From a virus, in IMG/VR virus record IMGVR_UViG_3300029286_000037, positions 1 to 64,000 of that record: a DNA stretch of 64,000 bases; one strand, given 5' to 3'. How positions within the stretch are numbered: the stretch's first letter is position 1; the number at the start of each line of letters is the position of its first letter. Positions 23,596-48,434 of the stretch are shown one piece after another. The position numbers were made by a program, and so were the translations under genes. Under the pieces are notes generated by a model. That model saw only the letters and a list, made by a program, of their open reading frames with translations. It was not told where the DNA came from and made no database searches.

Positions 23596-24492
23596 TTAAG
23601 ACCAACCACCAGCCCCACCGCTTGCAAAGTTTCTTCGAGACTGAACCCCGGGTCGAGAGTATGGGCCCAAAGCACTGCTGATACCTACCCCGTATCTTGG
23701 TTGTTTCAATCCGATAGCTATTTTTATTGATCTTTTTGCCTGATCAAGAACCTTATCGTATTCATTTTCGAAAGAATCTTTCATAGATTGGTACTTTGAG
23801 GACTTCTCTAAATTTAAAGAAACACCGCTTATACTATAATCGTACTCATCTACTATCCAGTTAAGTGCAAGAGCACCGCAAGCTATTGAAGCTGCCTTCA
23901 AGAGCAGAACGGATCTCCACCTATCAGGTGTCTGGTTAAGAACTATGCCAGTTACTGGCGGTGCAGTATTAAAAAAGTCCACAGACATAAGCAAGTACTC
24001 ATATAATTCGTAATCTTCCCAGATAAACCCGAAAACCTGCGCCTGTGCTTGTATAAATTTCTCACTTGACGGTGGGCGAAATCTATAATTCCTATCCGGA
24101 TTATTATCTCTAAGAATGATTCGTAATCTTCTTATAAGGGCCTGCTCTGAGCTTACGCTTGTGATATCGGTCTTTACATCTTTAGCAACTATATTAAATT
24201 CTTGTACAACCTGTATGAGAGGAGAACCCGATTCTTCTCTAAAGTTCCAGCGAACAATCCAATCCCCTATATTAGAATCCAAGGGCATGGTAGTACTGAC
24301 ATAATACTGACCTACACCCATAGACGCGGGTATCTGGTCTGGAGCCCCTATAAGGACTTCCACACCTGAAGTATAATCAAATAGTGAGTATCGAATGTAG
24401 TATGGATCAGATAAATTCCCAATACTATCTCGTATCAATATCTTCAGATCTTCTTTATTAAGCGTTTGACCAGGGTAGTATGCTACAGACAT
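23596..24492 (-). CDS. Baseplate wedge-like protein with Ig-like N-terminus
   Basis: A 298-residue protein. The N-terminal 105 residues form a beta-sandwich-like domain (PYYIRYSLFDYTSGVEVLIG ... IGDWIVRWNFRE) that aligns by eye with the 134-residue protein at 24806-25210. The C-terminal part is helical (about 110-260) and ends in a Gly/Ser/Arg tail. Position in the baseplate cluster suggests a structural adaptor. Confidence 0.62.
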   Translation of the reverse strand: MSVAYYPGQTLNKEDLKILIRDSIGNLSDPYYIRYSLFDYTSGVEVLIGAPDQIPASMGVGQYYVSTTMPLDSNIGDWIVRWNFREESGSPLIQVVQEFNIVAKDVKTDITSVSSEQALIRRLRIILRDNNPDRNYRFRPPSSEKFIQAQAQVFGFIWEDYELYEYLLMSVDFFNTAPPVTGIVLNQTPDRWRSVLLLKAASIACGALALNWIVDEYDYSISGVSLNLEKSSKYQSMKDSFENEYDKVLDQAKRSIKIAIGLKQPRYGVGISSALGPYSRPGVQSRRNFASGGAGGWS

Positions 24493-26335: not shown

Positions 26336-26363
26336 ACTGTCTTCAATAAGTAACCCTTAGCTC

Positions 26364-26789
26364 TTACGCATTACCGTAATAGTAACCTGTTGACCCAGCA
26401 GCACCTGTTGAATACTTATCATTGGAAAGCTTATCCATGTAAGTATCGGTGAATCTTGAAGTACCGGTGTCGCCAATATCCTGACGTGGAACTTCATCAG
26501 CTGAAGTGTAACTACCTTCAGTAAGAACGAGCGGGGCACCATTACGTGCAGAAAAGGTAGCATTGCTGCTTGTTGTAGAGAAATACTTCAATACACCTTT
26601 TGCCATACTGAAAAGAACGTTGTCAGTAATTTGGAGAACTTTTGTCTCTCCCCACATAATATATTCATCTTGACCGCAATTGAAATTGCCTTCTTGTGCG
26701 CCACCAAGCTGACTTCTTTTATCTACGTCAGTAAAGTAAATCTTACCAACGTTTGTACCAAGGTACGCTACCCTAAGTGTATTAGCCAT
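26364..26789 (-). CDS. Abundant-type small virion protein, monocistronic
   Basis: A 141-residue protein beginning MANTLRVAYLGTNVGKIYF, Gly/Ser/Thr/Tyr-rich towards a C-terminus with Thr-Gly and Tyr repeats (STGYYYGNA). It has its own promoter motif 73 bases upstream and a strong terminator, an arrangement often used for high-copy structural proteins. No family recognised; fibre or baseplate decoration is possible. Confidence 0.62.
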   Translation of the reverse strand: MANTLRVAYLGTNVGKIYFTDVDKRSQLGGAQEGNFNCGQDEYIMWGETKVLQITDNVLFSMAKGVLKYFSTTSSNATFSARNGAPLVLTEGSYTSADEVPRQDIGDTGTSRFTDTYMDKLSNDKYSTGAAGSTGYYYGNA

Positions 26790-26862
26790 AAAAAGCCTCC
26801 CTTAAATTAAACCATACTGTTTGTATATAAAACCTTTTCAGGTATCTTCATTAAAGACCCCG

Positions 26863-26878
26863 TATTAAGAGATTATTA
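26863..26878 (-). promoter_or_regulatory. 16-bp promoter motif, minus arm of divergent pair
   Basis: Minus-strand TAATAATCTCTTAATA, one mismatch from consensus, 73 bases before the 141-residue gene. A plus-strand copy lies only 18 bases away. Confidence 0.66.
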
Positions 26879-26896
26879 ACTATCGTAATTATCTAT

Positions 26897-26912
26897 TAAT
26901 AATCTATTCAGA
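26897..26912 (+). promoter_or_regulatory. 16-bp promoter motif, plus arm before the glycosyltransferase island
   Basis: TAATAATCTATTCAGA on the plus strand, two mismatches from consensus, 41 bases before the RHH ATG. It is the only plus-oriented copy found and points at the only two-gene plus-strand operon. Confidence 0.6.
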
Positions 26913-26953
26913 GACATGAGTACAACCTACACACCTATTTACAGGGGAGATAC

Positions 26954-27130
26954 ATGGATAGAGTAAATTTTCACCTTACTGAGGGTGAGATACACGGATT
27001 GAAGGTCATATCTGACTTGACTGGGGTACCACGTGCCGAAATAATAAGACGCGCGGTCGACGATTATATCAATCGAAAAAAGTTTGAAGGTTTTACAGGA
27101 CTTGAGAATATCAAAGAGGTGTACGCATGA
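26954..27130 (+). CDS. Ribbon-helix-helix (RHH) regulator
   Basis: A 58-residue protein with an RHH layout: an N-terminal beta strand (MDRVNFHLTEGE), helix 1 (IHGLKVISDLTG) and a turn plus helix 2 (VPRAEIIRRAVDDYINR). A GGGGAGA site precedes the ATG by three bases. Its TGA overlaps the next ATG (ATGA), so it is translationally coupled to the glycosyltransferase and probably controls this island. It resembles the minus-strand RHH protein at 49016-49201, which also adjoins a plus-strand cassette. Confidence 0.75.
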   Translation: MDRVNFHLTEGEIHGLKVISDLTGVPRAEIIRRAVDDYINRKKFEGFTGLENIKEVYA

Positions 27131-30100
27131 AAACCTCAAACTACTTGCTTGGTTTAAATATTATTTGCGGTCCTGATGATAAAGATGTTTTGGACAGGTG
27201 TTTAAAAAGTTGTCAGGGAGGCTTATTTGATGAGATTGTAGTAACCCTTGCTATGGGTAATGAAGACCCAGAGATAAAGGCTTTAGCTGAGAGTTACGGG
27301 GCTAAAACATTTTTCTTCAAGTGGATCTCTGATTTCGGTGCTGCCAGAAACTTTTCTTTTAGTAAGAACACTTCCAAATACATTATGTGGCTGGATTCTG
27401 ATGATATCATAAAACCTTCGGAATATAAAAAGCTCTTGGACCTTAAACCAAAGATTAATACCTGGGACATTGTCGTTCTTAACTACGTTTATAGTCATGA
27501 TGAAAATGATGCCCCCGTATTAACACTTCCCAGAGAACGTATCGTAAAGAACTGTGCGCATATAAAGTGGCATGACCCTATCCACGAGTACATGAATCTT
27601 GATGTCCCACAGAATAAATTGCACCGTGAGAATATAAACATTGACCACTACAGAATCAGGATGCACAACCCCGCCCGTAATATTGAGGCACTTAAAAAAG
27701 TCTATGATGCAGGCGGATGCTCTGAAAGAATTAAATTCTATTACGGTAAAGAGTTGTCTGATTTCGGTATGTGGGAAAAAGCAATCGAGGTACTTGAGCC
27801 TTATATAAAAAAGGGTGCTGACTTTGCAGATAACCTTACAACAGCTTGCATCCGTTTATCCAAGTACTATTTTGATAAATCGGATTTCACTTCCGCAAAG
27901 ACGTACGCTTTAGAAGGTATCCGTTTTAATAGCATCTATGCTGAAAACTATGTCGTACTAGGGAACATCTTTGAATATGAAAAAGATTTTGACACTGCTG
28001 CTGCTTATTATTTGGAAGCGCTTAATAAGACGCTAGATGGTGGTATGTCTCAGATAGTTGACTATTACGGTTTCATTCCTGCAGCTAAATTAGCCCTACT
28101 GTACTATACGAAAAAAGAGTATGACAAGGGTATAAAGTTTTGCAACTTAGCTCTCAAACATAAGCCAGGTAACGAACAGATGGTTGCATTACAGAAGGTG
28201 ATAGACAACGAGGTAGCGAGACTATCAAAAGGAGCTCTGCTGCAGACACCGGATATCGAAAATTTGAAAGATTTTTTATCAAAATGTTCTTTCACTATGG
28301 ATATAAAAAATAATAATCTTGAATTCTGCGACATTCGTTTAAAGAAGATCGTGAATTTAAAGGTATCCTGGTTTATCCCCACATTAAATCTCAATGACCC
28401 CGGTGTCAGGATAAGAAGAAGTAATATCTGCTGTGAAATGCAAAAGATGGGGATAGAAAGTTCTATCATAACTAATTACTATGGAATAAATCCCTATGAA
28501 ATTAGAAACATGGTGGGAGACTCTTCTGTAGCAATCTTTACACAAATGAGTAAAGATGACTTAGAGATCATGAAGCACATTAATGCTTCAGGTATAAAAT
28601 GCGTCTTTGATCATTGTGAGGCTATTTTCAACTACCCCTTTCAGCGTGATTGTATGAATGAAGCAGATCTCATTACATGCTGTTCAACGAAGCTTATGGA
28701 GCTTACAAACGAACAGGGGTATACGCGTGCAGTAGTGCTTAAGGACGCTGTAGAAAAAACAGAAACCAATACCATTTACAGTGATAGGTATCCAAAACCC
28801 AAAGCTGTTTACATGGGCATGGGGGGCAACTCCTGGCTGGTTAATGATTGGTTAAAGGACACAATTGAGGAAGCTGGCTACGAATTAGTCACCATAACAG
28901 AATGGGACAATGCGACTAAACGTTGGAACCCAGAAACATGGGCAGAAGACATGCTAGAGTGTGACGTAGTACTCTGTCCTCAAAGAGTTGATGTCCAACC
29001 GGCAAAGAGCTCTGTAAAAGCAACTACTGCTATGGCACTCGGCTTACCTGTATTATGCTCCCCTCTTCAAGCCTATAAAGAGGTTGTAGTCTCTGGTGAG
29101 AACGGGTTTATCTGCGAGACAAAAGAAGAGTGGAAAGAAGCACTTATTAAATTGAAGGATAGCAATTTAAGAAGAATAATAGGTGAAGCTGGTAGAAAGT
29201 CAGTGGGGGAATACAGCTTAAGAGCTATTACAACACAGTGGCAGGAGAATCTTACTAAGCTAATTAATAATCAATTTGCTTTCCCAGAGCCTCCTGAGGT
29301 AGTTGATACAAAAGTTAGATCATTAGTTGATATTATTATCGCCAGCTATAATAACGTTGACTACTTGAAAATGTGTGTATCATCCATCCTTATGAATACC
29401 CTACACCCATTTCATATTATCATCTCAGATGGTGGGAGCGATAAAGAGACTTGGGAATATCTGTCAGCATTGAAGGGGATTACCGTTGTAGGCGACCCGG
29501 GGAAAAGGATGTCTTTTTCTGAAACATGTAATGCCGGTATACTTGCTTCGAACACTAAGTATTTTGTGATCCTGAATTCTGACGTCATAGTTTCAAAATG
29601 CTGGCTTACTAGCCTGGTACACAAAATGGAAACTGTAGATCGTTTAGCTTCTTGCGGTGTGCTTAGTAATTGTGATAGAGGCTGGCTGCATGATGCCCCG
29701 AATAAGCCTTCATACCCTATGCTCCTGGAGAAATCTAAGATAGATCTTCACCCCGCTATGAAGATCAACGAGATTAAACCACATGTAGAAGAACTTTATA
29801 AGTTTATGGAGGACTCTAATAAACAGCATAAGGGTGTCTTTGTGAAACAAGAATGGGTCGCAGCTTATGCCACTATCTTTGCACGTTGTGCCATAAATGA
29901 GGTAGGCCTTTTTGACCCCCTTTATAAGAATGGGTGTGAGGATCTTGACCTTATAGCACGGTTATCAAAGTTTGGGTATGCGACAGGACAGGCTATTGAT
30001 TCTTTTATATTCCACTTCGGCGGGATAAGTCGCATGGCATACCAGGATGAGAATCGAGAGTCCTATAACGAAGAAGACCGTGCAAACCATTTAAAGTACA

Positions 30101-31248
30101 AAAATAAGTGGGAAAAGCGTAGGGTAGTCATCTGGACAGGCCCCGCATGGGAGCCGTGGAATAAAGCCAAGGTAGATGAAGGTATGGCAGGTTCTGAGAC
30201 CTGGGCGTCATATCTAGCACGGGAGTTTGTCAAAAAAGGTTTTCAGACAACGATCTACAATGACCTACTTATTGAAGATAAAAATGGGACCCTCCTTGAC
30301 CCCGTTATGAATGAAGTAGGGGAAAAAATCGGGGATGTCATTTATCGAGACCATAAAAATCTTCAGTCTGATGTAGAATATGGAATAGTCGACTATTTCA
30401 TATCTTCCCGTTCTGTCGATCCTTTGAAAATGAATATCCATTCTTTGAGAAACTTTGTAATGATCCACGATGTCTGGTTATCACATGATAAGAAATTTGA
30501 CATTATGACCTGGCGAGTAGATAAGTACGCCTATTTGTCTGAGTGGCACAAAGAGTTCTTAATGCAGCATCACGGTCTTATAAGCGATAAGATGTTCCTC
30601 ACTGCAAATGGTCAGGATTTCGAACTTTATGCTGATGTAGATCGCTATGAAAAAAAGAATCAAGCAGTATACTCCTCAAGCCCAGATAGAGGGCTGTATC
30701 AACTTTTAAAGATGATGCCTTTGATTAGGAAAGAAGTACCAGACTTTGAACTAATCGTAGCATACGGGTTTTATAACTGGGAGACCATGGCACGTTCCCG
30801 TAATGATCTTGAAGGTCTAAGATTTATTGCGGAAATAAAAAGTCTTATGGAGCAGCCCGGGGTAAAATACGTTGGCAGAGTCAGCAAGAAAGAATTAGCT
30901 GAGTACGAAAAAGAATCTAAGGTATGGTTATACCCAACTTGGTTCTCTGAGACTTTCTGCATAACCGCCTGCGCAGCTGGGTTAGCTAAATGCGCTATTG
31001 TCGGTACTGACTTTGCTGGACTACAAACTACTGTAGGGTCTTCTGGTGTGCTTCTACCTCCTGATGGACTAAGTAGAAATGGTGAGTATCCTCAGCAGTA
31101 TATTGACAGTTTTGTTAAAGAGGCTGTAACAATGCTTTCTGATAAACAGTACCGACTTGAGTGGTCTGAAAAAGCATATAACAAAATGAAGATGTACAGT
31201 TGGGATAATATAGCTAGAGGTTGGATGAAGGAATTTGGTATAAAGTAA
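27127..31248 (+). CDS. Giant multi-domain glycosyltransferase (GT2-TPR-GTB-GT2-GT4)
   Basis: A 1373-residue protein. Residues 1-110 are a GT2 (WaaE-like) domain with WLDSDDII near 88. About 190-370 are TPR-like helical repeats. About 412-715 form a GT-B-like domain (CPQRVDVQPAKSSVKATTAM, GENGFICETKEEW). About 734-985 are a second GT2 (IIIASYNNVDYLKMCVSSIL, then VILNSDV and GCEDLDL). About 998-1373 are a GT4 (VVIWTGPAWEP, KVWLYPTWFSETFCITACAA). Such fusions make or transfer surface glycans. It might modify host envelope, phage fibres or DNA. No signal peptide, so cytoplasmic. It sits in a plus-strand island next to minus-strand fibre genes and ends at a strong hairpin. Confidence 0.88.
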   Translation: MKTSNYLLGLNIICGPDDKDVLDRCLKSCQGGLFDEIVVTLAMGNEDPEIKALAESYGAKTFFFKWISDFGAARNFSFSKNTSKYIMWLDSDDIIKPSEYKKLLDLKPKINTWDIVVLNYVYSHDENDAPVLTLPRERIVKNCAHIKWHDPIHEYMNLDVPQNKLHRENINIDHYRIRMHNPARNIEALKKVYDAGGCSERIKFYYGKELSDFGMWEKAIEVLEPYIKKGADFADNLTTACIRLSKYYFDKSDFTSAKTYALEGIRFNSIYAENYVVLGNIFEYEKDFDTAAAYYLEALNKTLDGGMSQIVDYYGFIPAAKLALLYYTKKEYDKGIKFCNLALKHKPGNEQMVALQKVIDNEVARLSKGALLQTPDIENLKDFLSKCSFTMDIKNNNLEFCDIRLKKIVNLKVSWFIPTLNLNDPGVRIRRSNICCEMQKMGIESSIITNYYGINPYEIRNMVGDSSVAIFTQMSKDDLEIMKHINASGIKCVFDHCEAIFNYPFQRDCMNEADLITCCSTKLMELTNEQGYTRAVVLKDAVEKTETNTIYSDRYPKPKAVYMGMGGNSWLVNDWLKDTIEEAGYELVTITEWDNATKRWNPETWAEDMLECDVVLCPQRVDVQPAKSSVKATTAMALGLPVLCSPLQAYKEVVVSGENGFICETKEEWKEALIKLKDSNLRRIIGEAGRKSVGEYSLRAITTQWQENLTKLINNQFAFPEPPEVVDTKVRSLVDIIIASYNNVDYLKMCVSSILMNTLHPFHIIISDGGSDKETWEYLSALKGITVVGDPGKRMSFSETCNAGILASNTKYFVILNSDVIVSKCWLTSLVHKMETVDRLASCGVLSNCDRGWLHDAPNKPSYPMLLEKSKIDLHPAMKINEIKPHVEELYKFMEDSNKQHKGVFVKQEWVAAYATIFARCAINEVGLFDPLYKNGCEDLDLIARLSKFGYATGQAIDSFIFHFGGISRMAYQDENRESYNEEDRANHLKYKNKWEKRRVVIWTGPAWEPWNKAKVDEGMAGSETWASYLAREFVKKGFQTTIYNDLLIEDKNGTLLDPVMNEVGEKIGDVIYRDHKNLQSDVEYGIVDYFISSRSVDPLKMNIHSLRNFVMIHDVWLSHDKKFDIMTWRVDKYAYLSEWHKEFLMQHHGLISDKMFLTANGQDFELYADVDRYEKKNQAVYSSSPDRGLYQLLKMMPLIRKEVPDFELIVAYGFYNWETMARSRNDLEGLRFIAEIKSLMEQPGVKYVGRVSKKELAEYEKESKVWLYPTWFSETFCITACAAGLAKCAIVGTDFAGLQTTVGSSGVLLPPDGLSRNGEYPQQYIDSFVKEAVTMLSDKQYRLEWSEKAYNKMKMYSWDNIARGWMKEFGIK

Positions 31249-32096: not shown

Positions 32097-33692
32097 TTAT
32101 TTTATCGCCGGTTGAACCGTCGATGGTCGTTTCATTCTTTCAGGGTGCTTTACTTTCTTAGGCTCCTTTAACCCATATTGAGTTACCTTCTTGGGACTCT
32201 TAACATCCTCACTTGGGGCTTCCTCTTCATCCTTATCGTCTTCAGGAGGCTTTGTCCCAGGCATATCTATCTTGCCTGTACCCTTTCCCTCTTCCTCAAT
32301 GTTTTCAGGAGTACTCTGTGGTTCAACACCACTTTCTGATTGAACAACATTCTCCATCATTTCATACCCAGTATTGACTAAAACTGAGGAGATGTGTTCA
32401 CCCTTTTTTCGCTTAAGATACGCTTCCTCTATAAGGATGAAGAACACTCTCTCCGGGTACATCGCAAATTCCTTGAGAGACTTAAGCTTCTGCTCATCAG
32501 TTCTTGGGAACCATGTATTGTAAAACCAGTCAATAACCGCTGGAGTAACGCTCTCCCTATTGAAATAGGCAGGTACTTTTGGAGAAGAACTTAGTAATTT
32601 ATCTTTTATGTCCTTTTCCGTAAATGGAAATTTCATTAGATTTTTCCACACGTCTTTATTCATAATCTTAGACGGAGGTGCTGATATAGGATACTTTTTA
32701 TAGTGAATCTCTATTGGAGTATTCTTGACATCATCAAAAACTGCTAAGATATGTTTACAAACTCTGGAATTTAACCCTCTTCCTGGATTATTCTTTCCCT
32801 TTGGATATCGAGTACTAACTGACTTGGTGTACTGATCCTGGGAACGAGGGGCCGTAAGATCAGGCTTAAAAGCTGGCATATACATATAACCATCACGCAC
32901 AGCATAATATTGAGCACCACTGTATAAAAAAGATGGACAGGTGCAACCAATATGTACCGGATAATCTACATACTTAGAAGCCGGTTTCTCATCATCTCGT
33001 AAAAATTGTAGATATACGTTATGAGCACCGTGCTCAGACCCCGGGGAACTTACCTTGAAGATAAATAGCCCATGCTCAAACTGATTGGGATTATTTTTAT
33101 TAGTCCATACAGCTTGACACTTCTCAGCGCGTTGAAGCTTTAAGTCATTCTTGTAATGAAAATCCTTATCCACTATGTCGCCCAATGTGGCAGCGACCTT
33201 ATTTCTCATAATAAACTCATAGAAATCAGAACCAGGGATCGTAAACCCTGCTAAGAGTTCCTTAGGAATAACTCCAGAGGCACATCTCTTTCGAGTAAGA
33301 CTCATAGCGGGCCCTTGCTCATCTTCATCCTGAGTAAAGTCCTGCTCCTGTGACTTAGCCCACTCCTCTAATACCCCGCCTTCACTGAATATCCTTGGGA
33401 AATTAAAGTACCCCTCTTGGGTAGGTTCTGATATAACATTTTCGAATGGTGGAGAGTCCTTCTGATCTTTTGGGGCATCAGAAGGACTTTCATAGTCATA
33501 AGGATTAGTTGTATTAAATGAGGTATCTAAATGCTTTTTATTCTTTAGCATATCAAGAACCGGATTATCTGGTATAACCATAGGTTTGGATTTACCGTCT
33601 AGATACTCCATCCATGACTTATTCATGTCAGGAGGATTGTCTCCAGGTTCTTCAAAATACCTCGCTAAAACTCTTCTAACCCTTTGATCCAT
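32097..33692 (-). CDS. Virion-associated protein with SWIM-type zinc finger
   Basis: A 531-residue protein. A CxC (IGCTCPSFLYSGAQYY, near 249) and a later CxH (RVCKHILAVFDDV, near 309) form the SWIM zinc-finger pattern CxC..CxH. The N-terminal 90 residues and the last 90 (Pro/Glu/Lys-rich) look disordered. SWIM fingers bind DNA or protein. Neighbours suggest a structural or DNA-management role in the head. It ends near a string of small genes and starts two bases after the upstream stop. Confidence 0.65.
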   Translation of the reverse strand: MDQRVRRVLARYFEEPGDNPPDMNKSWMEYLDGKSKPMVIPDNPVLDMLKNKKHLDTSFNTTNPYDYESPSDAPKDQKDSPPFENVISEPTQEGYFNFPRIFSEGGVLEEWAKSQEQDFTQDEDEQGPAMSLTRKRCASGVIPKELLAGFTIPGSDFYEFIMRNKVAATLGDIVDKDFHYKNDLKLQRAEKCQAVWTNKNNPNQFEHGLFIFKVSSPGSEHGAHNVYLQFLRDDEKPASKYVDYPVHIGCTCPSFLYSGAQYYAVRDGYMYMPAFKPDLTAPRSQDQYTKSVSTRYPKGKNNPGRGLNSRVCKHILAVFDDVKNTPIEIHYKKYPISAPPSKIMNKDVWKNLMKFPFTEKDIKDKLLSSSPKVPAYFNRESVTPAVIDWFYNTWFPRTDEQKLKSLKEFAMYPERVFFILIEEAYLKRKKGEHISSVLVNTGYEMMENVVQSESGVEPQSTPENIEEEGKGTGKIDMPGTKPPEDDKDEEEAPSEDVKSPKKVTQYGLKEPKKVKHPERMKRPSTVQPAIK

Positions 33693-33694
33693 TT

Positions 33695-34912
33695 TTAGAC
33701 TTCCGATAATAAATCATTAAGATCTAGTTCCATGTCATCACCCGATGATTGCTCACCAAGTATATCTGCAACAGTATCCTCACCAGAGGATATAACCGCT
33801 ACAGGATCTTCATAGTCGTTATTCGATGAGAACTGTACCTCACCGGCATCGATATCCCCTGAGGCACCCACAGTAACCCTTGAAATTATACCATCCTCAG
33901 ACTGAACACTTGAGGCCTTATCGCGGGTCACCTTACTTATAATAACAGCCTCTTGACCGTCAGTACTAATTACAGTGCCTTTAAATACAGGCTTCTGCTC
34001 GACAGGTGTCGCGGCAGGTTTTTGTGCTACAGGAGCTTTTTTAACCGGTGATTGGGTAGTTCCCTTTTTTACCGGTTTCTTCTTAGCAACGGCTGCTGTT
34101 TTCTTAACAGCGCTCTGAGACACAAGCTGAGATTGTGTACTAGAACCAACTGCTGTAGTTTGTTTTGCAGGATAGGATGTCTGACCTACCTCTACTTCAT
34201 TCTCAGCTACAGTGCTGTGCTCAACGGCTTTGCTTGTAGATGATTTATCGGAAGAAGTCTTTTTAAAGACTACCCCGGACGCTTCATAATCGATTGTAAG
34301 TTTTTTGTTTTCTTGAGGAGCTACGGTTACTCCAGAATAGTTAGTCTCTTTGGTTACCTGACCTTCACGAGATATGATAGTACTTTTCTTTACATTATCA
34401 GGACCAATTTCCACACTATTTTTATTAGTGTCGGGGGAGCCTTCAATGACAGATACTTTTCTAACCACATCATCATCACTGTTGATAACACGGACTTCTT
34501 TTCTGGCATCGTCCAGATCACTGGTTACTTCTCTTACCCCATTAACGATCTTGACCTCAGGTGTCTTATCATAAGTTTTTAGCAGGGCATGGATGCTGTC
34601 ACTGGGAGGATTCTTTATCCCAACAACTGGGTCAGAAGGATAATCACTGTGCTCAACCACTCTTCCGCCGGTGGCATTACGTGGAGACTGTGCCGACTGC
34701 TTCCCTGCAACCTTAACCACGGCATCTGATGGAGTAAGCCATTCACCAATTACTTTTGTTAATGATCGTGCAGTTCCTTTTTCCCCTTGGAACACAAGAT
34801 TAAGACCGTCAAATTCAAGAGTTTCTCCTCTTTTCACGTATATAGAGGTTTTACCGTTGTCCATACTCATTGAAAAATCCTGAATTGCGGTGTACTTTTT
34901 TAACTCTGACAT
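33695..34912 (-). CDS. Large low-complexity virion protein
   Basis: A 405-residue protein with a folded-looking N-terminus (about 1-65: KYTAIQDFSMSMDNGKTSIY, VIGEWLTPSD), then long Ser/Thr/Val/Lys/Pro-rich stretches (KKTAAVAKKKPVKKGTTQSP) and an acidic end (DMELDLNDLLSEV). It may be a disordered internal head or baseplate-linker protein. No enzyme motif. Confidence 0.55.
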   Translation of the reverse strand: MSELKKYTAIQDFSMSMDNGKTSIYVKRGETLEFDGLNLVFQGEKGTARSLTKVIGEWLTPSDAVVKVAGKQSAQSPRNATGGRVVEHSDYPSDPVVGIKNPPSDSIHALLKTYDKTPEVKIVNGVREVTSDLDDARKEVRVINSDDDVVRKVSVIEGSPDTNKNSVEIGPDNVKKSTIISREGQVTKETNYSGVTVAPQENKKLTIDYEASGVVFKKTSSDKSSTSKAVEHSTVAENEVEVGQTSYPAKQTTAVGSSTQSQLVSQSAVKKTAAVAKKKPVKKGTTQSPVKKAPVAQKPAATPVEQKPVFKGTVISTDGQEAVIISKVTRDKASSVQSEDGIISRVTVGASGDIDAGEVQFSSNNDYEDPVAVISSGEDTVADILGEQSSGDDMELDLNDLLSEV

Positions 34913-34955: not shown

Positions 34956-36236
34956 TTATATATCTAATGGTAACTTTTTTTCTTCACTATCACCATTAGA
35001 GAAAGCGATACTATCTACTGTAAATGTTTTCCCCTTGAATGTTTCATCACCAACAAACTTATCGCCTGCACCCTTTTTTACGTAGGATATAGTGACATGT
35101 GGTTTATAGGTAGGAAAGGAATTTTCATTATCAATTTTTTTAGCAAGATCATAGTGTAATCTTTCCAGAACACCTGATTCTACCTCAATTTTAAGGACAT
35201 CATACTCTTTTTTATCCTTGAAGACATTTATAAGCCCAAGACGTACTTTGAAGGGTTTTATCTTTGAAATAACCCGGGCAGTCTCTGCAGGGTCGCTGTC
35301 GACAATACCGTATAGAACAGTAACGTGGATGTCATCTTCTCGCCCCTTTGACCCACCACCCTCAGTGTAAAGTGCTTTACTCTTTATATTATCCTCACCC
35401 CATTTCATAATGGACTTTGAGATACCTTCAGGTAAATTTACTTTTGTACATGAGAACTCATACTTCATATTTTTTTTAGCAAATTTTCTTCTTATGTAAC
35501 TATGGGAACCACTATCGTATGAAAAAACGATGGAATCAGGATTTCTTCTTGAATATATTCTATTAACAGCTTCTATGTTACTGAAAAGTCTTAAGGCCTT
35601 AAGTTCCTGCTCACGATGACCCTCATCAAGATCCTTTATATTAAAAGTACTAAAAGACGATACGTTATTATCAAATTTGGGAATCTTAACTGTTTCCCCA
35701 TTAAGAATGTCTTTGACAACCTTGGTAATGGACTCATTATCTAATTTTTCAAAGTTAAGATCTATCGAATTAATGTTTTCGGTTGAGTTAGGGGTTAGAA
35801 AGTACGGGAGGGCTTCTTTTGAAAGGAGCTCTACATACTTTCTTATTTTTAAGCCGATACTCTCTCGCGTAGTAGACTTTGTCTTATTTAGAAACTTTCT
35901 TAAACTATCCATATTATCAAATTCCTTAATCAAGTTATCTCGTCTCCCAATAAGTTCAAGAAAAGCCTTTTCCCGAGCAGACTGCTTCCCACCCTTATAA
36001 AAAATGATATAATCAGAATTTAGCATACCAGCTACCTCTTTATACGTATTGGTAGCCGGGTCATAGTTTTTATCAAACGGATCTATTAAATAAAGATCCT
36101 TACCAAACTCTTTCTCAAGATCCTTACGCCAAGAGTTATCTGTACAGTCCCCACCAAGAAATATAACAGGAACTTTAGACTTGGATGCTTTGAGAATATC
36201 CTTATTTGATAAAAAAGAAGTAATTAAACGGATCAT
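34956..36236 (-). CDS. Nucleoside deoxyribosyltransferase-like / 2H phosphoesterase fusion
   Basis: A 426-residue protein. Residues 20-110 resemble a nucleoside 2-deoxyribosyltransferase-like Rossmann fold (PVIFLGGDCTDNSWRKDLE, YLIDPFD, then SDYIIFYKGGKQSAREKAF). A middle region with EQELKALRLFSNIEAVNRIY follows. The C-terminal 170 residues form a 2H phosphoesterase (2'-5' RNA ligase superfamily) with HVTVLYG near 305 and HVTISYV near 377, the paired HxT motifs. The fold calls are good. The substrate could be a cyclic oligonucleotide, an RNA end, or ADP-ribose-type ends; this is inference. It lies with lysis-type genes in a late unit. Confidence 0.78.
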   Translation of the reverse strand: MIRLITSFLSNKDILKASKSKVPVIFLGGDCTDNSWRKDLEKEFGKDLYLIDPFDKNYDPATNTYKEVAGMLNSDYIIFYKGGKQSAREKAFLELIGRRDNLIKEFDNMDSLRKFLNKTKSTTRESIGLKIRKYVELLSKEALPYFLTPNSTENINSIDLNFEKLDNESITKVVKDILNGETVKIPKFDNNVSSFSTFNIKDLDEGHREQELKALRLFSNIEAVNRIYSRRNPDSIVFSYDSGSHSYIRRKFAKKNMKYEFSCTKVNLPEGISKSIMKWGEDNIKSKALYTEGGGSKGREDDIHVTVLYGIVDSDPAETARVISKIKPFKVRLGLINVFKDKKEYDVLKIEVESGVLERLHYDLAKKIDNENSFPTYKPHVTISYVKKGAGDKFVGDETFKGKTFTVDSIAFSNGDSEEKKLPLDI

Positions 36237-36260: not shown

Positions 36261-36524
36261 TCATTCATCAGTTTTTTGAGTGCCACTGTCCTGAGGGGTG
36301 CCTGTTGTACTTTTACTTTCTGAAAAAGTCTGGGCAGATTTCATACCTAAAACACCCGCTATAAGTAATGCCTCTGATGCACCTAAGGAGATAAAAATAC
36401 CACCACGCACCATAGATAATACATTATGGGCTATGAAGACACCAATGACAGATACCACAACTATAAAAGTTGAGAATCGCATCATACTCACCTTACCATC
36501 AGGACCCTTAAACATCTCAAACAT
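36261..36524 (-). CDS. Holin-like membrane protein
   Basis: An 87-residue protein with two hydrophobic segments (about 18-38, FIVVVSVIGVFIAHNVLSMV, and about 43-62, FISLGASEALLIAGVLGM) and a polar C-terminal tail. The N-terminus (KGPDGKVSMMRFSTFIV) resembles small phage holin-type proteins that begin with a charged, Met-Arg leader. It adjoins the 2H phosphoesterase gene and a metallopeptidase unit. Two-segment topology fits a class II holin, but no functional proof is visible. Confidence 0.6.
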   Translation of the reverse strand: MFEMFKGPDGKVSMMRFSTFIVVVSVIGVFIAHNVLSMVRGGIFISLGASEALLIAGVLGMKSAQTFSESKSTTGTPQDSGTQKTDE

Positions 36525-36533
36525 AAGATTTCC

Positions 36534-37388
36534 TTAAGATTTAAGTTTGCTTATCTCAGCGTTAGATGCCTTATCGGACTTAGTGACCAGGGCGATTATT
36601 TTTTCTACGGCACCTTCTTCAGATAACTCTTCTGAATGGACCTTATCCATGATCTCAGATTCTTCTTTCTCAAAGTTTTTAACTATTAAAAGAATATTCT
36701 CGTGGATACCTATAAGCTTCTTGATGTTCCCTCTAAAAGCAGTGGCTGAGTCACTCTTTTCATACACCTTTTCAATACTGGGTATTGAATGCATCTCATC
36801 TGTTTCGTTTGCAACTTTATCATACTCATTTACTGCAGAAGCCAGTTTACTGACAAGTAGGGTGTATCCAAGCTTATCAAGACTCTCAGATATGCTGGCT
36901 AACTTGCTCCTTAAAACATTTCTTCGATCCAAACCTTGACCTAGTGGGGAAGAGATCTCTCCCTGATTATTTGTCTGTTCAATAAGGGGGGCTAAAAACT
37001 TTTTTACACTTGCATCTCCCTTACTGTACTGATCTGTAAGTCTTTCAGCGGTTAGTACCCCTGTTTTGATCCCAGTTAAGAGCTCTTCACGTGTCTGTGG
37101 TTTATCCATACCCCATAGGGTTATCTTTTCTTTTCCGGAAACTGGATCCAATGTGATAACAGGTTCCCCTCTTTTAGCAAAAGGAACTTTAACATTAGGA
37201 TCAGTTGGGGAGTGAGACACATCAGGAAAAGGCATATGTGGCTGACGGGGAGTTCTTTCAAAAGCTCTTGATAAAGGTAGGGCATTGAATACCGCGTCCT
37301 TCACCTGAGAAACATCAGAGGCTTCTTTACCTAAACCCTTTGTATTAAGGGTCTCAATTACTTTATCGAACTTTTTAGAATAACTCAT
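36534..37388 (-). CDS. Unknown helical virion protein
   Basis: A 284-residue, mostly helical protein. Residues about 160-200 (LASISESLDKLGYTLLVSKL) carry the amphipathic helix-pair motif seen in several other proteins here. The N-terminal part is polar with Pro-rich PFPDVSHSPTDPN. It overlaps the start of the metallopeptidase unit by four bases (37385-37388) and so is translationally coupled. No enzyme motif. Confidence 0.58.
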   Translation of the reverse strand: MSYSKKFDKVIETLNTKGLGKEASDVSQVKDAVFNALPLSRAFERTPRQPHMPFPDVSHSPTDPNVKVPFAKRGEPVITLDPVSGKEKITLWGMDKPQTREELLTGIKTGVLTAERLTDQYSKGDASVKKFLAPLIEQTNNQGEISSPLGQGLDRRNVLRSKLASISESLDKLGYTLLVSKLASAVNEYDKVANETDEMHSIPSIEKVYEKSDSATAFRGNIKKLIGIHENILLIVKNFEKEESEIMDKVHSEELSEEGAVEKIIALVTKSDKASNAEISKLKS

Positions 37389-38104
37389 CTTTTTCCGCCT
37401 TTAACATATTTCTTAATAAGCTTATCAAAGTAAGCTATTTTATTCTTCGGTAAGTAGCTAAGTGCCCCGGCGACATAATAAGAAAAACTATCCGCCCAGT
37501 CATCCCAGGGATTTCTCTTTGCATAAAACCTTGTAAATTTTGCATAGGGGGAGTAGTAATACTCACCAATCAACTCTGGAGAACCTTTCTCGCAGATATG
37601 CACCCTTTTAAGTCCCACTTTAGGGTACTTAGACCACCCAGAAAGACTTAACCAATCCTCTTTAAGGGATAGGTCCCCATCTTCCCCCTGAAATTCATCC
37701 CACCCATGCCCAAGCTCGTGATAGAGCGTTTGGTCAAATTTATTAAGGATGGAACCATTATCCGGGTCGATTATAATTTTCGGATCTTTTAATAACTGGT
37801 CATTTAAAACCAGAGTATTGTTAATGTATTTACCGTGATTAGGGTAATACTCTTTAGAAGGGCCCAGGTCATCGAATGACAGGGACTTTACTCCACACAT
37901 TCTGACTAGTTCTGGATTTAACCTCTGCAGACTTTCAAATAGAGTAGTTAAACACTCCGGGCTTGCTTTAGAATCAATATCGATCCCGTATATCTCCTTA
38001 ATTCCGGAGGATACACTGGAGTTACGACTATATTCTTCTAAGTCGACAGCAATTTTTCGTACACGATTAATAACATCTGTAGAATTATATTTTTTAGTCA
38101 TCAT
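37385..38104 (-). CDS. HELGH zinc metallopeptidase
   Basis: The motif TLYHELGHGWDEF (about 124-136) is the HExxH zinc site. A later NPWDDWADSFSYYVAG (about 195-210) could supply a third acidic ligand, as in gluzincins. The rest is alpha/beta with no signal peptide. It may be a virion or late-acting peptidase, for example in head maturation, host entry or lysis. The promoter motif is only 14 bases upstream of the annotated ATG, with no clear ribosome site, so a downstream start (the second Met) or a leaderless-type mRNA is possible. Confidence 0.75.
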   Translation of the reverse strand: MMTKKYNSTDVINRVRKIAVDLEEYSRNSSVSSGIKEIYGIDIDSKASPECLTTLFESLQRLNPELVRMCGVKSLSFDDLGPSKEYYPNHGKYINNTLVLNDQLLKDPKIIIDPDNGSILNKFDQTLYHELGHGWDEFQGEDGDLSLKEDWLSLSGWSKYPKVGLKRVHICEKGSPELIGEYYYSPYAKFTRFYAKRNPWDDWADSFSYYVAGALSYLPKNKIAYFDKLIKKYVKGGKR

Positions 38105-39765: not shown

Positions 39766-40653
39766 TTAGCGAGCTATTTTTACTCTGGTAATTGCCAATG
39801 GGTTATGACAACCAATACCCAAGTTTTCGAATACTGAGAAACCAATACGACGTGCTTTTGGATCATCGGCACTAAGTACTGTGAGTTCAGTTCTTACTGG
39901 GATACGACCGAAAAATTCTGGTTCTGCGCAAACGTAAGCATAACCAGGGTTAACTTTTCTGCTAACAATGATCTGAGCACCCCAAACGGTACCAAGAAGA
40001 CCACTCTTGAGCAATGTTCCCTGAGTTTCGATATCAAGAACGTCACGTCCCCATTTTCTGATGTCTGCGAAATCCAGAGCATTCATGAAAATACGAGCAA
40101 CGCGAAGATCATGTGTCTCGATACGTGCGAAAGCATCGATCAGGTTCGCAGGAGTAAGAGGAGCAACGGCATTGATCTGTGCATTCACATATGCGCTTCC
40201 GATGTTATCGAAACCGAACTGTGAAACTGCGTCCATGACATCAAAAGCACGTGCATCTTCAGCAGCCTGGATCTGAGCCTTTGCTAAGTCCTGTGCTCTC
40301 TCAATAAGATCAAAACGGCGTTCTTTGATCTGAGTAAGAGGAAGCTCTGGGTTCGATGCTATTTCGAAAAGAGGGAATATCACACGGCGAGGTTTTGTGA
40401 TCGCCAGAATGTTTTCACCTTCTTCTCCGACAACGAAAGCTGTTACGTTAGGATCTTTGTCGTAAATTGGCAGTGCGCCATCTGGCAACTGCTCTACGAG
40501 AAAAGCCTTACGAGCAACTGACGTGTAATCTCTACGAAGACGTAAAGGCTGTATCATAGAAGCAGCAAGCTTCGCACGACCAGCAGCAGTCTTGATGTAA
40601 TCTCCGATGATCTGTTGTTTCAGTTCATTGGAAATTGCGTTTGTACCTTCCAT
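39766..40653 (-). CDS. Major capsid protein (HK97 fold)
   Basis: A 295-residue protein that matches the common phage major-capsid pattern: LVEQLPDGALPIYDKDP, a DLIERAQDLAKAQIQAAEDA helix, the ETHDLRVARIFMNALDFADI segment, GAQIIVSRKVNPGYAYVC and EPEFFGRIPVRTELTVLS. It has no long N-terminal scaffold domain; a separate acidic scaffold-like gene and protease-like gene lie upstream. It builds the head shell. It has a strong ribosome site (AAGGAGG) and is followed by a good terminator, as expected for a highly expressed gene. Confidence 0.9.
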   Translation of the reverse strand: MEGTNAISNELKQQIIGDYIKTAAGRAKLAASMIQPLRLRRDYTSVARKAFLVEQLPDGALPIYDKDPNVTAFVVGEEGENILAITKPRRVIFPLFEIASNPELPLTQIKERRFDLIERAQDLAKAQIQAAEDARAFDVMDAVSQFGFDNIGSAYVNAQINAVAPLTPANLIDAFARIETHDLRVARIFMNALDFADIRKWGRDVLDIETQGTLLKSGLLGTVWGAQIIVSRKVNPGYAYVCAEPEFFGRIPVRTELTVLSADDPKARRIGFSVFENLGIGCHNPLAITRVKIAR

Positions 40654-41456: not shown

Positions 41457-42401
41457 TTAAAAAATCGAACTTACATCAGGTGCTGAAGACCATAGACTTG
41501 ACAAGTCATTTGATCCGCTTGAAGAAGCTTCCTTCTTAACCATACCAGAAAGTTTTGAAGCACCTTTCTTAATGGGAGAAGGCATAACACCACTGAAAAT
41601 CTGATCAAGGAGACTTGAATCAGAAGCTTCAACTTCTTCTTCATCTTTCTTAGCATCAGCAGAAGCATCTTTCTCTTCTTTGTCATCTTCATCAGAATCA
41701 GCAGAAGCATCCTTCTCTTCATCTTCCTTAACTTCTTTTTCAAGATCTTCAGCTGCTTTTTTCAGACTAGCAAGCTTTTCTTTCTTTTTCTTGAGATCGA
41801 AGGCATGAGGGTCATTCTGACCAGCTTCTTTATCAGACTTTTCTTTGTCATCATCTTTATCTTTGTCATCAGAAGCATCTTTTTCAGACTTTTCTTTTGC
41901 TTCTTCATCTTCATCTTTCTCTTCAGCAGATTCACCGGCAGCTTTTGCAATCATCATAGCAAGGCTTTCCTGATTTGAAAGAGTAGCGTTAAGGCCATCT
42001 TCAGGAAGGTGCATAAGAATGCCAGCTTGTTTTTCGATAATGGCGTCTGTCGCACCGGGGAGCATTCTCTGAGAAGCAATGATAGCTTTTACAGCTTTCT
42101 CTTCAAGTCTACGGGCACTTGCGATAGCTTCTGTTGCAGCATGTTTATCGATAAGGGGAGCATGTCCTGTCTCTTCACGTTTCTGATCATCCTTTGCAGG
42201 ATTATCTTTATTGACACCTTCATTCCATGTCTCAGAATCACCCTTTGCATATTCACCGATAGCGGGATCGTTCTTTGAATGGCCTGTATCATTCATATCG
42301 TATGGATCATTGGCGATTCCAGAACCTTTATCCACAACCTGGGCTCCTGGCTTTGACTTCATATCAGCAGCCGTTCTTGTAGTTAAGCGTTCACGAGACA
42401 T
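41457..42401 (-). CDS. Acidic scaffold-like head protein
   Basis: A 314-residue protein with a structured N-terminal half (LPEDGLNATLSNQESLAMMI) and a very acidic Asp/Glu/Lys middle (about 155-255, with repeated EKDASAD units). It ends in a conserved-looking helix before SIF. It lies between the putative protease and the capsid, typical of scaffold or core proteins. The N-terminus MSRERLTTRTAADMKS shares RLTTRxAA with the 215-residue gene at 59364-60011. Likely an assembly scaffold; not certain. Confidence 0.62.
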   Translation of the reverse strand: MSRERLTTRTAADMKSKPGAQVVDKGSGIANDPYDMNDTGHSKNDPAIGEYAKGDSETWNEGVNKDNPAKDDQKREETGHAPLIDKHAATEAIASARRLEEKAVKAIIASQRMLPGATDAIIEKQAGILMHLPEDGLNATLSNQESLAMMIAKAAGESAEEKDEDEEAKEKSEKDASDDKDKDDDKEKSDKEAGQNDPHAFDLKKKKEKLASLKKAAEDLEKEVKEDEEKDASADSDEDDKEEKDASADAKKDEEEVEASDSSLLDQIFSGVMPSPIKKGASKLSGMVKKEASSSGSNDLSSLWSSAPDVSSIF

Positions 42402-42502: not shown

Positions 42503-44116
42503 CTATTCAAAATTGGATAAAATCTTAGCCCACTTAGCTAATTTTCTACTTTCATATTGAGTTGGTTTACGTCCTATTTCCACTATCATTTCTGTGAAAA
42601 AAGGAAGCATCCCAGTTGAAGAAAGCTTTACCCTAGATAGTGTCTTGACAGCATCTGTACCTACAGGTTTGTCAGACGCATTCTTATCAATAAAGTGTAA
42701 AATTCCTAAGACATCATCACGAGTATACCCATACTTTTTAAATTGCTTCCAATTCTTTAAAGTAGAAAGTATCATGAGACCGTTATACAAACGATCATTA
42801 TTTGCCGTCTTTGCTGAAGCGAGTACTTTATTAAAACCTGCTGATTTACTTACCAAGTTATCGTTAGAAGATGTTTCGTCATCAGTAGGGCGTTGACTAC
42901 CATCATTCTTAGCCTGCTCCTTCATAATCTCTCTGCGCATCTGATTAAGAACTTGCCGCTTTACCATATCCTTTACTTCATTCACAGTAGCGTCATCTTT
43001 AGGCTCGTTTATCTGTGGTTCCTGAGCCATCGCTGGATCCGCACCACCTAAACCACCTGGAGCAGCCATCGCTGGATCCGCAGCTGGAGCAGCACCGCCT
43101 GCATCCCCTAAAGAATCAGCAGGAGGGGCGGCATCTTCAACAGGAGGAGTATCTACCGCTAAAGGTTTATCAGACTCTGCAGGAGCCTCTGGGAAGCTGA
43201 AGTCATCCTTTGGAGGTGCCGGAGCATCTCCTTCAGCAGCTTCAAGGTCCCTTACTATTTCTTTTGCACTTTGAGACGCAGCCTTCAGGTACATACCAGG
43301 CATGTATTCAAAGGAAGGCATAGCAACAGCCTTTTGAATCTTATCAGAAAGATCTACCTCAAAAGGTAGAACCTTGTTAAGTACCGCCCCCTCAAATGCA
43401 GGTTTGCGCACCCAACTACCATCTATAAATTTGCAGCTGTCTGGATCATCCGTTGACCCGCAAAGTTCTGCTACAATTCTTTTTACGCCATTATCATCGT
43501 AGAAGTAATTACCTTTAAAAAATCTTACATGTTTGCATGACTGAGATTCATCTTCTGCGGATCTACCGCATTGAGTACATATGCTGTACTTAATCAAACA
43601 GCCCATAGAAACAGCGGAGTATTCTCCGGATTGAATTTTTGCGATTAAATCAGTATGCTTCTTATTTGTTGCAATAAGAATGTCTACATACATCGTAGTA
43701 AGGTCATTGCCATGGGAATCTTTTGCAAAAGGAACTTCCCTCAAGGCAACATCGATAATCTTCCCTTTAGATAACTCAGGGATTTGAACATGTTCAACAA
43801 AGTTATCAGCACCGAGAAAACTCTTTGAAGCTACCTTCAAAAGGTTTCTTTCCCAACTATCCCCATTGTTATTTACAAAGATTGAATACTCAGGTTTGAT
43901 CAGATAATTACTTTTTGGGTTCGAAGGCTCTGCTAAGTCGACATCTACGGACGCCATAATAGTAACATGGCTCAATAGCCATTTTGAAGGATCAAATTGA
44001 GCTATAACACTCTTAGCAACAACGACTCTACCTTTAGGTACCACGTTGTCTACCCATTTACCTGGGCAGACAACTTTTGTTACTACTGCAGCATGTCCAA
44101 ACTTAAGCATTGCCAT
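42503..44116 (-). CDS. Putative head maturation protease with scaffold-like tail
   Basis: A 537-residue protein. The first 260 residues fit head-protease-like proteins: LLSHVTIMASVDVDLAEPS, FVEHVQIPELSKGKIIDVAL, and a Ser motif in EYSAVSMGCLIKYSICTQCG, where His and Ser could form the catalytic pair. A Cys4-type zinc site follows (CTQCGRS...SCKH). The rest (about 285-420) is Ala/Pro/Asp low complexity, then a basic helix (VKDMVKRQVLNQMRREIMKE), consistent with a scaffold tail. It lies before scaffold and capsid genes. Protease assignment is probable, not proven. Confidence 0.6.
   Translation of the reverse strand: MAMLKFGHAAVVTKVVCPGKWVDNVVPKGRVVVAKSVIAQFDPSKWLLSHVTIMASVDVDLAEPSNPKSNYLIKPEYSIFVNNNGDSWERNLLKVASKSFLGADNFVEHVQIPELSKGKIIDVALREVPFAKDSHGNDLTTMYVDILIATNKKHTDLIAKIQSGEYSAVSMGCLIKYSICTQCGRSAEDESQSCKHVRFFKGNYFYDDNGVKRIVAELCGSTDDPDSCKFIDGSWVRKPAFEGAVLNKVLPFEVDLSDKIQKAVAMPSFEYMPGMYLKAASQSAKEIVRDLEAAEGDAPAPPKDDFSFPEAPAESDKPLAVDTPPVEDAAPPADSLGDAGGAAPAADPAMAAPGGLGGADPAMAQEPQINEPKDDATVNEVKDMVKRQVLNQMRREIMKEQAKNDGSQRPTDDETSSNDNLVSKSAGFNKVLASAKTANNDRLYNGLMILSTLKNWKQFKKYGYTRDDVLGILHFIDKNASDKPVGTDAVKTLSRVKLSSTGMLPFFTEMIVEIGRKPTQYESRKLAKWAKILSNFE
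43028..43083. repeat. Short direct repeat in the protease gene
   Basis: GCCATCGCTGGATCCGCA occurs twice (about 38 bases apart) and encodes the duplicated ADPAMA segments of the low-complexity linker. Confidence 0.75.
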
Positions 44117-46502: not shown

Positions 46503-48434
46503 TTATTTCCCACCGGACAAGTACTCAGCTATCTTATCCAATTTCTCAGGGTTTTTTAGAACTATGGACATCAATTTTGTTACAGCAGCCTGTCGTTTAC
46601 TATTTAAATTACTGGAAGAGAATCTGGCACCGCCAAGACCGCCCCCAAGACCACCGTCCATACCACCATCTTCTCCAGGAGGAGGTGGCGGTAGAGGATC
46701 AAGATTCATGTACTCAGCAAGCCTATCTGTTACTGAGAACTTCTCTACCAGAGACTGCCCTGCAGCGGTATAGACATTTGCCATAAGCTGATTGAATGCA
46801 AAGTCATTAACAGTGAATAAATCAGCTTCAATCTTTTTACGGGTAGATATTGGATCAATATTGAGCATCTCAAGGATCACATCAATTGATATTGATCCTT
46901 TATTATATAACTGCATAGCCTGATCAAAGAAGGTATCGTTATCCTTAATAGCAAGGCGAGTAAAGCTCAGCTTAGGGTATATAAGTTTTTCTCTACCGTA
47001 TTTATCCTTTTCTACAAAACCTTTTTTACGAGCTACAGGTTTAAACAAGTAATCTTCGACATACTCCTGTAGAAGTTCCCGGAATAATAGGTATTGAGTA
47101 TTCAGGATTTCAAGGGTCATCCGGTTACCGGCATATGTGCCTTCACCTGTTAAAATCTCACGGGTCACACCAAGCCCAGCAAAAAGAGAGTTCTCTATAT
47201 GATCATACTCACTTGAAAGCTCAAGAAGACGACCATTAGAACCCATTTCTTCCCAATGAACTTCATAGTTGGCGATAATGGAAAAATCTGGATCCACAAG
47301 AGCTAAATCAACCTGCTCCCGTAAATTCTCAACGTCTACATCAGATAACTCTTCTGCCCACACCACTCTTATAGGGGTCATGTGCCGGGAAGCTATCTGG
47401 GACTGTGCCTGACGAAGTTTGTCCTGAAGTAAAAGAGAGTTAATACACCGTTCAAGGATAGAAACACCAAGAGTCTCGTATTGACTCTTTCTACGAGCCA
47501 GGTGATGGACATAAGACCCACTGTACGGATCAGTATCCAGAGCAATGCTTCCATTATTCTCAAGATCTCTCGAAAGACTCGTGGGCAACCTGGGCTGTGC
47601 TTCTTTTTCATTTGGATTATTAGGAGAGTACGAAGGGTCCTGCGTACCTAAAATACTTTTTCTTGTTTCAGGATCCGGAATAAATTCTATTAGACTCTCA
47701 TCAGAAAAAGGAATCTTTTTAATTCTAACTTGGTCCGGAGGAAGTATAATTAACTTTCTCCACCCCTTATAATTTGGGTCTTTATCAATGATATTAAATT
47801 CAGTATAAAGCCTCTCAGCTTCCTTTTTCCCGAATTCTTTCAACTCTGCTACACGAGCTTCACCCGTTTTATCTCCCTCATTATAATCATATGGGCTATG
47901 GTCTTCTGCATAAGTAAAACAGTTTCCCAGAAGGTGGTACTCATGGCTTATCTCAAGTAATGTTTTGAATAGCTTAGTCTCGCTACACATCTCTAAGAAA
48001 AAGTCATATACGTAATCTACTTGCTCTTGATTTTTACCATGAGGCTTCTCGAGTCGGATCTTAGAAAGGGGGAGAGTCGAGTGAAGATCAAGAGCTTGAC
48101 CTACAAACTCATTTGCATTATAAAAATGACGGTACCATGCCCGGCGTTCACGTAGATTCTGTGGTTTTTCCAGAAAGTCAGTAGATAGTTGTGGCGAATA
48201 AAAGTTTCCTTGGCTACTCTCTGATTGCCCACCATTACCATAACCCCCTCCACCGGAGAAAGCTGAACGAGTATTAAACCCGAGACTACTCGTAGTAGCA
48301 TACTTTTTAAGTTTCCGGACTGCTATTTCTTTATCAGTCAACTTTGATGAAGCTTTGATATTGTCACCGTTTTTCACGACAGCAGCAGTCTTAGACCTTA
48401 CGACAGTCTTAGTACGAGTTTCGTCTTTGTTCAT
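46503..48434 (-). CDS. Portal protein
   Basis: A 643-residue protein with the portal layout: the WYRHFYNANEFVGQALDLHS segment leading to LPLSKIRLEKP, a central crown/wing region, and a conserved GLGVTREILTGEGTYAGNRM segment with LEILNTQYLLFRELLQEYVE and DYLFKPVARKKGF near residues 420-475. The C-terminal tail is Pro/Gly-rich, then helical. It forms the 12-subunit ring at the head vertex for DNA packaging. It lies between two small head genes and the downstream head operon, with the terminase farther upstream. Confidence 0.9.
   Translation of the reverse strand: MNKDETRTKTVVRSKTAAVVKNGDNIKASSKLTDKEIAVRKLKKYATTSSLGFNTRSAFSGGGGYGNGGQSESSQGNFYSPQLSTDFLEKPQNLRERRAWYRHFYNANEFVGQALDLHSTLPLSKIRLEKPHGKNQEQVDYVYDFFLEMCSETKLFKTLLEISHEYHLLGNCFTYAEDHSPYDYNEGDKTGEARVAELKEFGKKEAERLYTEFNIIDKDPNYKGWRKLIILPPDQVRIKKIPFSDESLIEFIPDPETRKSILGTQDPSYSPNNPNEKEAQPRLPTSLSRDLENNGSIALDTDPYSGSYVHHLARRKSQYETLGVSILERCINSLLLQDKLRQAQSQIASRHMTPIRVVWAEELSDVDVENLREQVDLALVDPDFSIIANYEVHWEEMGSNGRLLELSSEYDHIENSLFAGLGVTREILTGEGTYAGNRMTLEILNTQYLLFRELLQEYVEDYLFKPVARKKGFVEKDKYGREKLIYPKLSFTRLAIKDNDTFFDQAMQLYNKGSISIDVILEMLNIDPISTRKKIEADLFTVNDFAFNQLMANVYTAAGQSLVEKFSVTDRLAEYMNLDPLPPPPPGEDGGMDGGLGGGLGGARFSSSNLNSKRQAAVTKLMSIVLKNPEKLDKIAEYLSGGK

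Follow-up and report, generated by a model that had tools for sequence, protein, structure and literature searches.

A 426-residue protein encoded by an uncultured phage joins a nucleoside 2-deoxyribosyltransferase (NDT)-like domain to a C-terminal 2H phosphoesterase domain, and its gene occupies a slot downstream of the major capsid gene (Table 1). The window, i.e. the whole stretch of DNA that was analysed, comprises 64,000 of the 64,866 bases of the virus record and includes a head and tail module. The presumed catalytic residues of both domains are conserved among relatives and the gene is under purifying selection. We tentatively propose that this late-region protein is packaged and injected, and that its two nucleotide-cleaving sites would dismantle a host nucleotide signal. 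Degradation of an immune signal, as suggested earlier from the bare DNA (hereafter the sequence-only reading), is plausible for this protein.

Table 1. Features of the NDT-2H gene and its surroundings (positions refer to the window).
Feature	Position	Strand	Remarks
NDT-like + middle domain + 2H phosphoesterase fusion	34956..36236	-	426 aa, ATG start
NDT-like (Nuc_deoxyri_tr2) domain	35877..36179	-	residues 20-120; motifs FLGG, NxWR, DPxD, NxYxE
Putative NDT catalytic motif [ST]xxE	35970..35981	-	S86-A-R-E89, start of helix after strand 3
Low-confidence linker with basic amphipathic helix	35769..35876	-	residues 121-156; pLDDT 38-56 mostly, high dN/dS
Middle domain	35487..35768	-	residues 157-250
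2H phosphoesterase domain	34959..35465	-	residues 258-426
First HxT	35319..35327	-	H304-V-T306, family signature GRED just before
Second HxT	35091..35099	-	H380-V-T382
Terminase	54777-56645		
Portal	46503-48434		
Protease-like	42503-44116		
Scaffold	41457-42401		weak match
Major capsid protein	39766..40653	-	PHROG 2522 E 7e-54
Zincin-like metallopeptidase candidate (HELGH)	37385..38104	-	239 aa; motif in sequence, Pfam matches weak
Fast-evolving helical protein	36534..37388	-	284 aa; 4-base overlap with zincin stop
Small membrane protein	36261..36524	-	87 aa
Repetitive protein	33695..34912	-	405 aa, syntenic
Protein with weak SWIM-like Cys/His cluster	32097..33692	-	531 aa, syntenic
Tail sheath	9482-12418		

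Domain layout and conservation of the fusion

The sequence-only reading had called an NDT-like fold at the N-terminus and, from paired HVT motifs (HVTVLYG, residues 304–310; HVTISYV, residues 380–386), a 2H phosphoesterase at the C-terminus. Profile and structure matches bear out both calls, which missed the middle domain, a conserved stretch that matched no family in a Pfam search and that is missing from the orthologues L011 and L050. The full-length AlphaFold2 model reached a pLDDT of 79 and a pTM of 0.44. The same NDT-2H fusion is present in seven other uncultured phages (L002, L006, L044/L010, L045, L046, L011 and L050; L044 and L010 are the same contig, and L029 is a fragment of L011). 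The fusions of L002 and L006 show 62–63% identity, and those of L011 and L050 carry an additional N-terminal segment. Comparison of L002 with L006 yielded dN/dS ratios of 0.19 for the NDT part, 0.09 for the middle part and 0.16 for the 2H part, and thus all three parts are maintained by purifying selection.

GTDB genomes contained no bacterial homologues of the NDT part, and a search of these genomes with the 2H part returned two contigs of one Phycisphaeraceae MAG; neither the plasmid search nor PADLOC gave a match. Neither an NDT nor a 2H domain is present in LR745208, the phage with the most similar capsid protein, so that an origin of the gene at the root of this capsid lineage need not be assumed.

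The 2H domain between RNA phosphodiesterases and Acb1

Members of the 2H superfamily have two HxT motifs ~70–80 residues apart in a two-lobed fold, which is what the window protein displays (H304/T306 and H380/T382). The best Pfam score of the domain was obtained with 2_5_RNA_ligase2 (PF13563; 36.3 bits, cut-off 27) and the best PHROG match was PHROG 755 (E 6.5e-13), whose name ‘RNA ligase’ goes back to ‘2'-5' RNA ligase’, whereas the window protein has no ligase domain. In an alignment of 24 rows, 23 of which contain the 2H domain, the HxT pair and a GRE[DEN] signature ahead of the first histidine are kept in 23/23 relatives. Loss of the second histidine in homologues, which the sequence-only reading had named as evidence against its own proposal, was thus looked for and is absent. 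Together with a structural match at Z 16.5, these results firmly place the C-terminal domain in the 2H superfamily.

In a structure search, the model of residues 258–426 matched drCPDase at Z 16.5, LigT at Z about 15.5 and Acb1 (7t26) at Z 13.2; that is, the modelled domain is structurally closer to CPDase/LigT than to Acb1. RNA 2',3'-CPDases, LigT and Usb1 are all among its best matches, raising the question of whether the 2H domain acts on RNA, either as a 2',3'-cyclic phosphodiesterase cleaning RNA ends or as a Usb1-like nuclease damaging host RNA, with the NDT-like domain binding or depurinating nucleic acid. The likeness to RNA 2',3'-cyclic phosphodiesterase/LigT covers both the top structural matches (Z 15–16.5) and the top Pfam score, and extends to the equivalog model TIGR02258 (E 2e-7), whose cut-off of 65.7 bits is however not reached (30.8 bits); the window protein also differs from these enzymes by its extra domains. 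An RNase role has been suggested for MuF-fused 2H domains by Iyer et al. 2017 (PMC5512222). On the other hand, the neighbouring proteins scanned contained neither an RNA ligase nor a kinase domain, polyvalent 2H domains have never been seen with RNA ligases (PMC5512222), and an NDT partner would be unexpected for an RNA-repair enzyme. All in all, we regard RNA-end processing or RNA attack as doubtful, yet as nearly as likely as the dismantling of a signal.

The phage anti-CBASS enzyme Acb1 provides the second point of reference, and comparison with Acb1 and NDT structures, proposed in the sequence-only reading as a check, returned matches to both (7t26 as above; 4mcj at Z 8.0). The window protein shares with Acb1 (PF23474; PMC9117128) the 2H fold and the HxT pair, and its 2H domain scores above the Pfam cut-off (32.8 bits, cut-off 27). 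In a sequence alignment, Y259, F339 and F374 align with the base-stacking aromatics Y12, W74 and F107 of Acb1, which would put aromatics at three of the four stacking positions. However, the lid tryptophan (W147 in Acb1), which both compared T4-type Acb1 or Acb1-like proteins carry near their C-termini, has no counterpart: none of the 23 family members has a tryptophan in its C-terminal 20 residues. Hence, we do not assign the protein to Acb1, and cyclic dinucleotides are not a substrate favoured by homology. Further differences from Acb1 are the GRED signature before the first HxT, the fusion to NDT and the location of the gene among capsid genes. The protein may nevertheless act in an Acb1-like manner, and an anti-CBASS function is possible.

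The NDT-like domain and its putative active site

The window protein itself matches Nuc_deoxyri_tr2 (PF15891) weakly (domain E 0.001; 19.8 bits, cut-off 30), and the orthologues L044 (31.7 bits) and L046 (31.0 bits) exceed the cut-off. In the full model, the NDT part matches the NDT structures 4mcj and 6qai at Z 8.0, a value that by itself may reflect a common fold arrangement, so that the sequence matches of the relatives are the stronger support for the assignment. Modelled as a single domain, the NDT part came out worse than within the full model (pLDDT 67; best Z 7.1), and for this reason our fold claim relies on the relatives' Pfam scores and on the full model.

The motifs FLGG, NxWR, DPxD, NxYxE and [ST]xxE are kept in 11/11 NDT relatives, and a helix spanning residues 87–96 starts at [ST]xxE in the model. 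As the canonical stand-alone Nuc_deoxyri_tr2 proteins of huge phages (L055, L057, L058 and L059) have TxxE or CxxE at this place, E89 rather than E94 is likely to be the catalytic glutamate; the register relies on this motif and on where the helix begins, since the MAFFT alignment is ambiguous there. E94 is ruled out because relatives have D, K or T at this position; E89 never varies. The fold, the FLGG loop, NxWR and [ST]xxE are shared with Nuc_deoxyri_tr2, DNPH1, MilB and YtoQ. In contrast to the Nuc_deoxyri_tr2 family, the window domain is shorter, lacking part of the canonical C-terminal segment, the glycine after the catalytic glutamate is replaced, and the domain is fused to 2H.

It could be argued from the weak profile match, the replaced glycine and the partly missing C-terminal segment that 2H is the sole enzyme and that the NDT-like domain is inactive, serving as nucleotide binder or assembly part. 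L051 and similar loci, which have NDT alone among the tagged genes described below, would fit such a role, maybe that of an adaptor. We nevertheless consider an inactive domain unlikely, as [ST]xxE, FLGG, NxWR and NxYxE are invariant in 11 sequences and purifying selection on NDT is about as strong as on 2H. Still less probable, in fact only a slim chance, is an offensive effector whose injected NDT-like domain destroys NAD+ or host DNA bases while 2H processes the products: toxic effectors with an NDT fold do exist, such as the NDT-like effector of retron Eco1, whose phage defence is linked to NAD+ hydrolysis (PMC12405507), AbiJ-NTD fusions are predicted to attack DNA bases (PMC3710099) and one tagged cluster includes a possible ART gene, but loss of NAD+ early in infection would hurt the phage too.

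Genomic context, and proposed packaging and function

Downstream of the capsid gene, the window encodes a 250-aa protein, the HELGH zincin-like candidate, the helical protein, the small membrane protein, NDT-2H, the repetitive 405-aa protein and the SWIM-like protein. In 7/7 orthologous loci, the genes for the zincin-like, NDT-2H, 405-aa and SWIM-like proteins occur in this order, and three of these loci have the capsid gene within reach; tblastn recognised the helical and membrane proteins in some of these loci, not in all. By capsid, the relatives are LR745208 (73.5%), Tunturi_5 (48%) and Bacillus phage G (41%), and the best terminase matches are also LR745208 and Tunturi_5. Several loci have large genes between the capsid and zincin-like genes that are absent from the window (L006:1379-4114, L002:60-2642 and L050:667-2790), which by eye resemble homing endonucleases and methyltransferases. 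Elsewhere in the window, a 1373-aa protein conserved in the lineage, with several glycosyltransferase and TPR matches, is encoded on the strand opposite to its neighbours (27127-31248, +); its L006 orthologue (L006:11230-13272) seems to be split by an intein-like insertion, which is missing from the window copy. A protein beginning SVGLDIGTCF and reminiscent of actin-like ATPases is encoded among the tail genes (14716-15726, -; relative in L052, 12008-12277).

Among the close relatives of the 2H domain, L039 is fused to MuF (PF04233, 3e-11), L037 to a prohead (head maturation) protease (PHROG 207, 5e-23), and L003 is encoded between TerL and portal. In Tunturi_5, 2H is part of a 1362-aa polyvalent protein together with SprT-like metallopeptidase (slightly below its cut-off), ART-PolyVal and GNAT domains, and the gene is flanked by orthologues of the window genes 23596-24492 and 18559-19935. 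The corresponding slot in L049, L051 and L052 is filled by small tagged genes. They encode a HELGH protein that weakly matches GNAT, a possible ART and unknown proteins, as well as NDT, which either stands alone or is fused behind another tagged part. The tag, MKHLAxIQxEFLKxA, is the only region over which these mostly unrelated proteins match each other, i.e. their first 15–17 residues, and is often followed by KWDDLSxxxQKxYLKRHPKSKRK. A scan of IMG/VR detected it in 11 stretches of 7 contigs ahead of differing domains; tagged proteins are located at L049:4465-6411, L051:5465-6369, L052:4163-6276 and L082-L092. In T4, internal proteins are loaded by means of N-terminal capsid targeting sequences some 10 residues long (PMC9026906), and by analogy the 15-residue tag may serve in packaging or targeting. 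The window protein shows a vague likeness to it at its N-terminus, a degenerate version at best. Three window genes contain a loose LRKIA-like motif, which was not counted as a tag because the pattern had been picked after looking.

Similar leaders were noticed in other genomes. Stand-alone 2H relatives (L017, L018, L022, L028, L030, L034 and L038) have FKQFLxxE-like N-termini resembling T4 capsid-targeting sequences. In the huge phage LR756508 (L004:4205-14511), the genes on either side of a stand-alone 2H gene begin with MKLKxLLxE-like leaders of the same kind, several carry LYRG or IFRG stretches suggestive of ART folds with no Pfam match, and a DNA polymerase gene lies immediately downstream of the 2H gene. 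In LR745208 (L063), two otherwise distinct genes (18716-19120 and 26343-27398) have the common leader MTTLRSKLIRLAHxxPxLRPxLLPLLKEA. A distant 2H match in Bacillus phage G (W04, 169496-169816) lies outside the head module.

Given the capsid-side slot, the MuF and protease fusions, the polyvalent protein of Tunturi_5 and the shared tags, NDT-2H is probably a polyvalent-type effector, packaged in the virion and injected. Polyvalent proteins with 2H domains, including MuF and portal fusions with no RNA ligase partners, were described by Iyer et al. 2017 (PMC5512222), who predicted the 2H domains to act on RNA as RNases or on nucleotide signals. Like these proteins, NDT-2H is encoded among virion genes and contains 2H, and its relatives include fusions with MuF, with prohead protease, or with SprT-like, ART and GNAT domains together. 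A polyvalent protein combines several enzymatic domains that are unrelated to each other; the NDT-like and 2H domains form such a combination, a borderline one since both handle nucleotides. The window protein differs in that it has three domains only, its NDT-like partner is absent from that study, and the zincin-like candidate is a separate gene with two genes in between.

According to the signal-dismantling proposal, the protein would reside in the virion and enter the cell along with the DNA, so that a signal could be destroyed at the onset of infection. The 2H domain, using H304/T306 and H380/T382, would open a phosphodiester beside a ribose 2'-OH by metal-free acid-base chemistry, as in 2',3'-cyclic phosphodiesterases and Acb1, and the NDT-like domain, with E89 as putative nucleophile, would cut a nucleotide or an NAD-derived molecule at its N-glycosidic bond. 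Jointly, both domains may dismantle a cyclic oligonucleotide, a 2'-5' oligonucleotide or an ADP-ribose derivative. A more detailed scenario, which we rate as a long shot, is that 2H linearises a cyclic or 2'-5' signal and the NDT-like domain then strips the base, barring its rebuilding. In this scenario the protein would be one of a group of injected effectors, some of them bearing the 15-residue tag as a modular packaging signal at the N-terminus, and the phage lineage that encodes them would be that of the relatives of Bacillus phage G and Tunturi_5.

Counter-nucleotide and RNA repair roles have been assigned to 2H in two related surveys, one on jumbo phages and one on viral NAD-ADPr systems. 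Deoxyribosyltransferases are mentioned neither in these two surveys nor in Iyer 2017, and a literature search pairing ‘deoxyribosyltransferase’ with ‘2H phosphoesterase’, in which subscription papers were thinly covered, found no report. Thus, 2H polyvalent proteins and NDT effectors are known in kind, and their pairing appears to be undescribed so far. If our proposal is true, phages carry signal-destroying nucleotide enzymes inside the particle, ready before phage gene expression, and a single effector pairs phosphodiester with N-glycosidic cleavage. The conserved slot and the N-terminal tag would then offer a direct route to further effectors of this packaged type among large uncultured phages, and would also make it possible to test the tag as a signal for loading proteins into heads.
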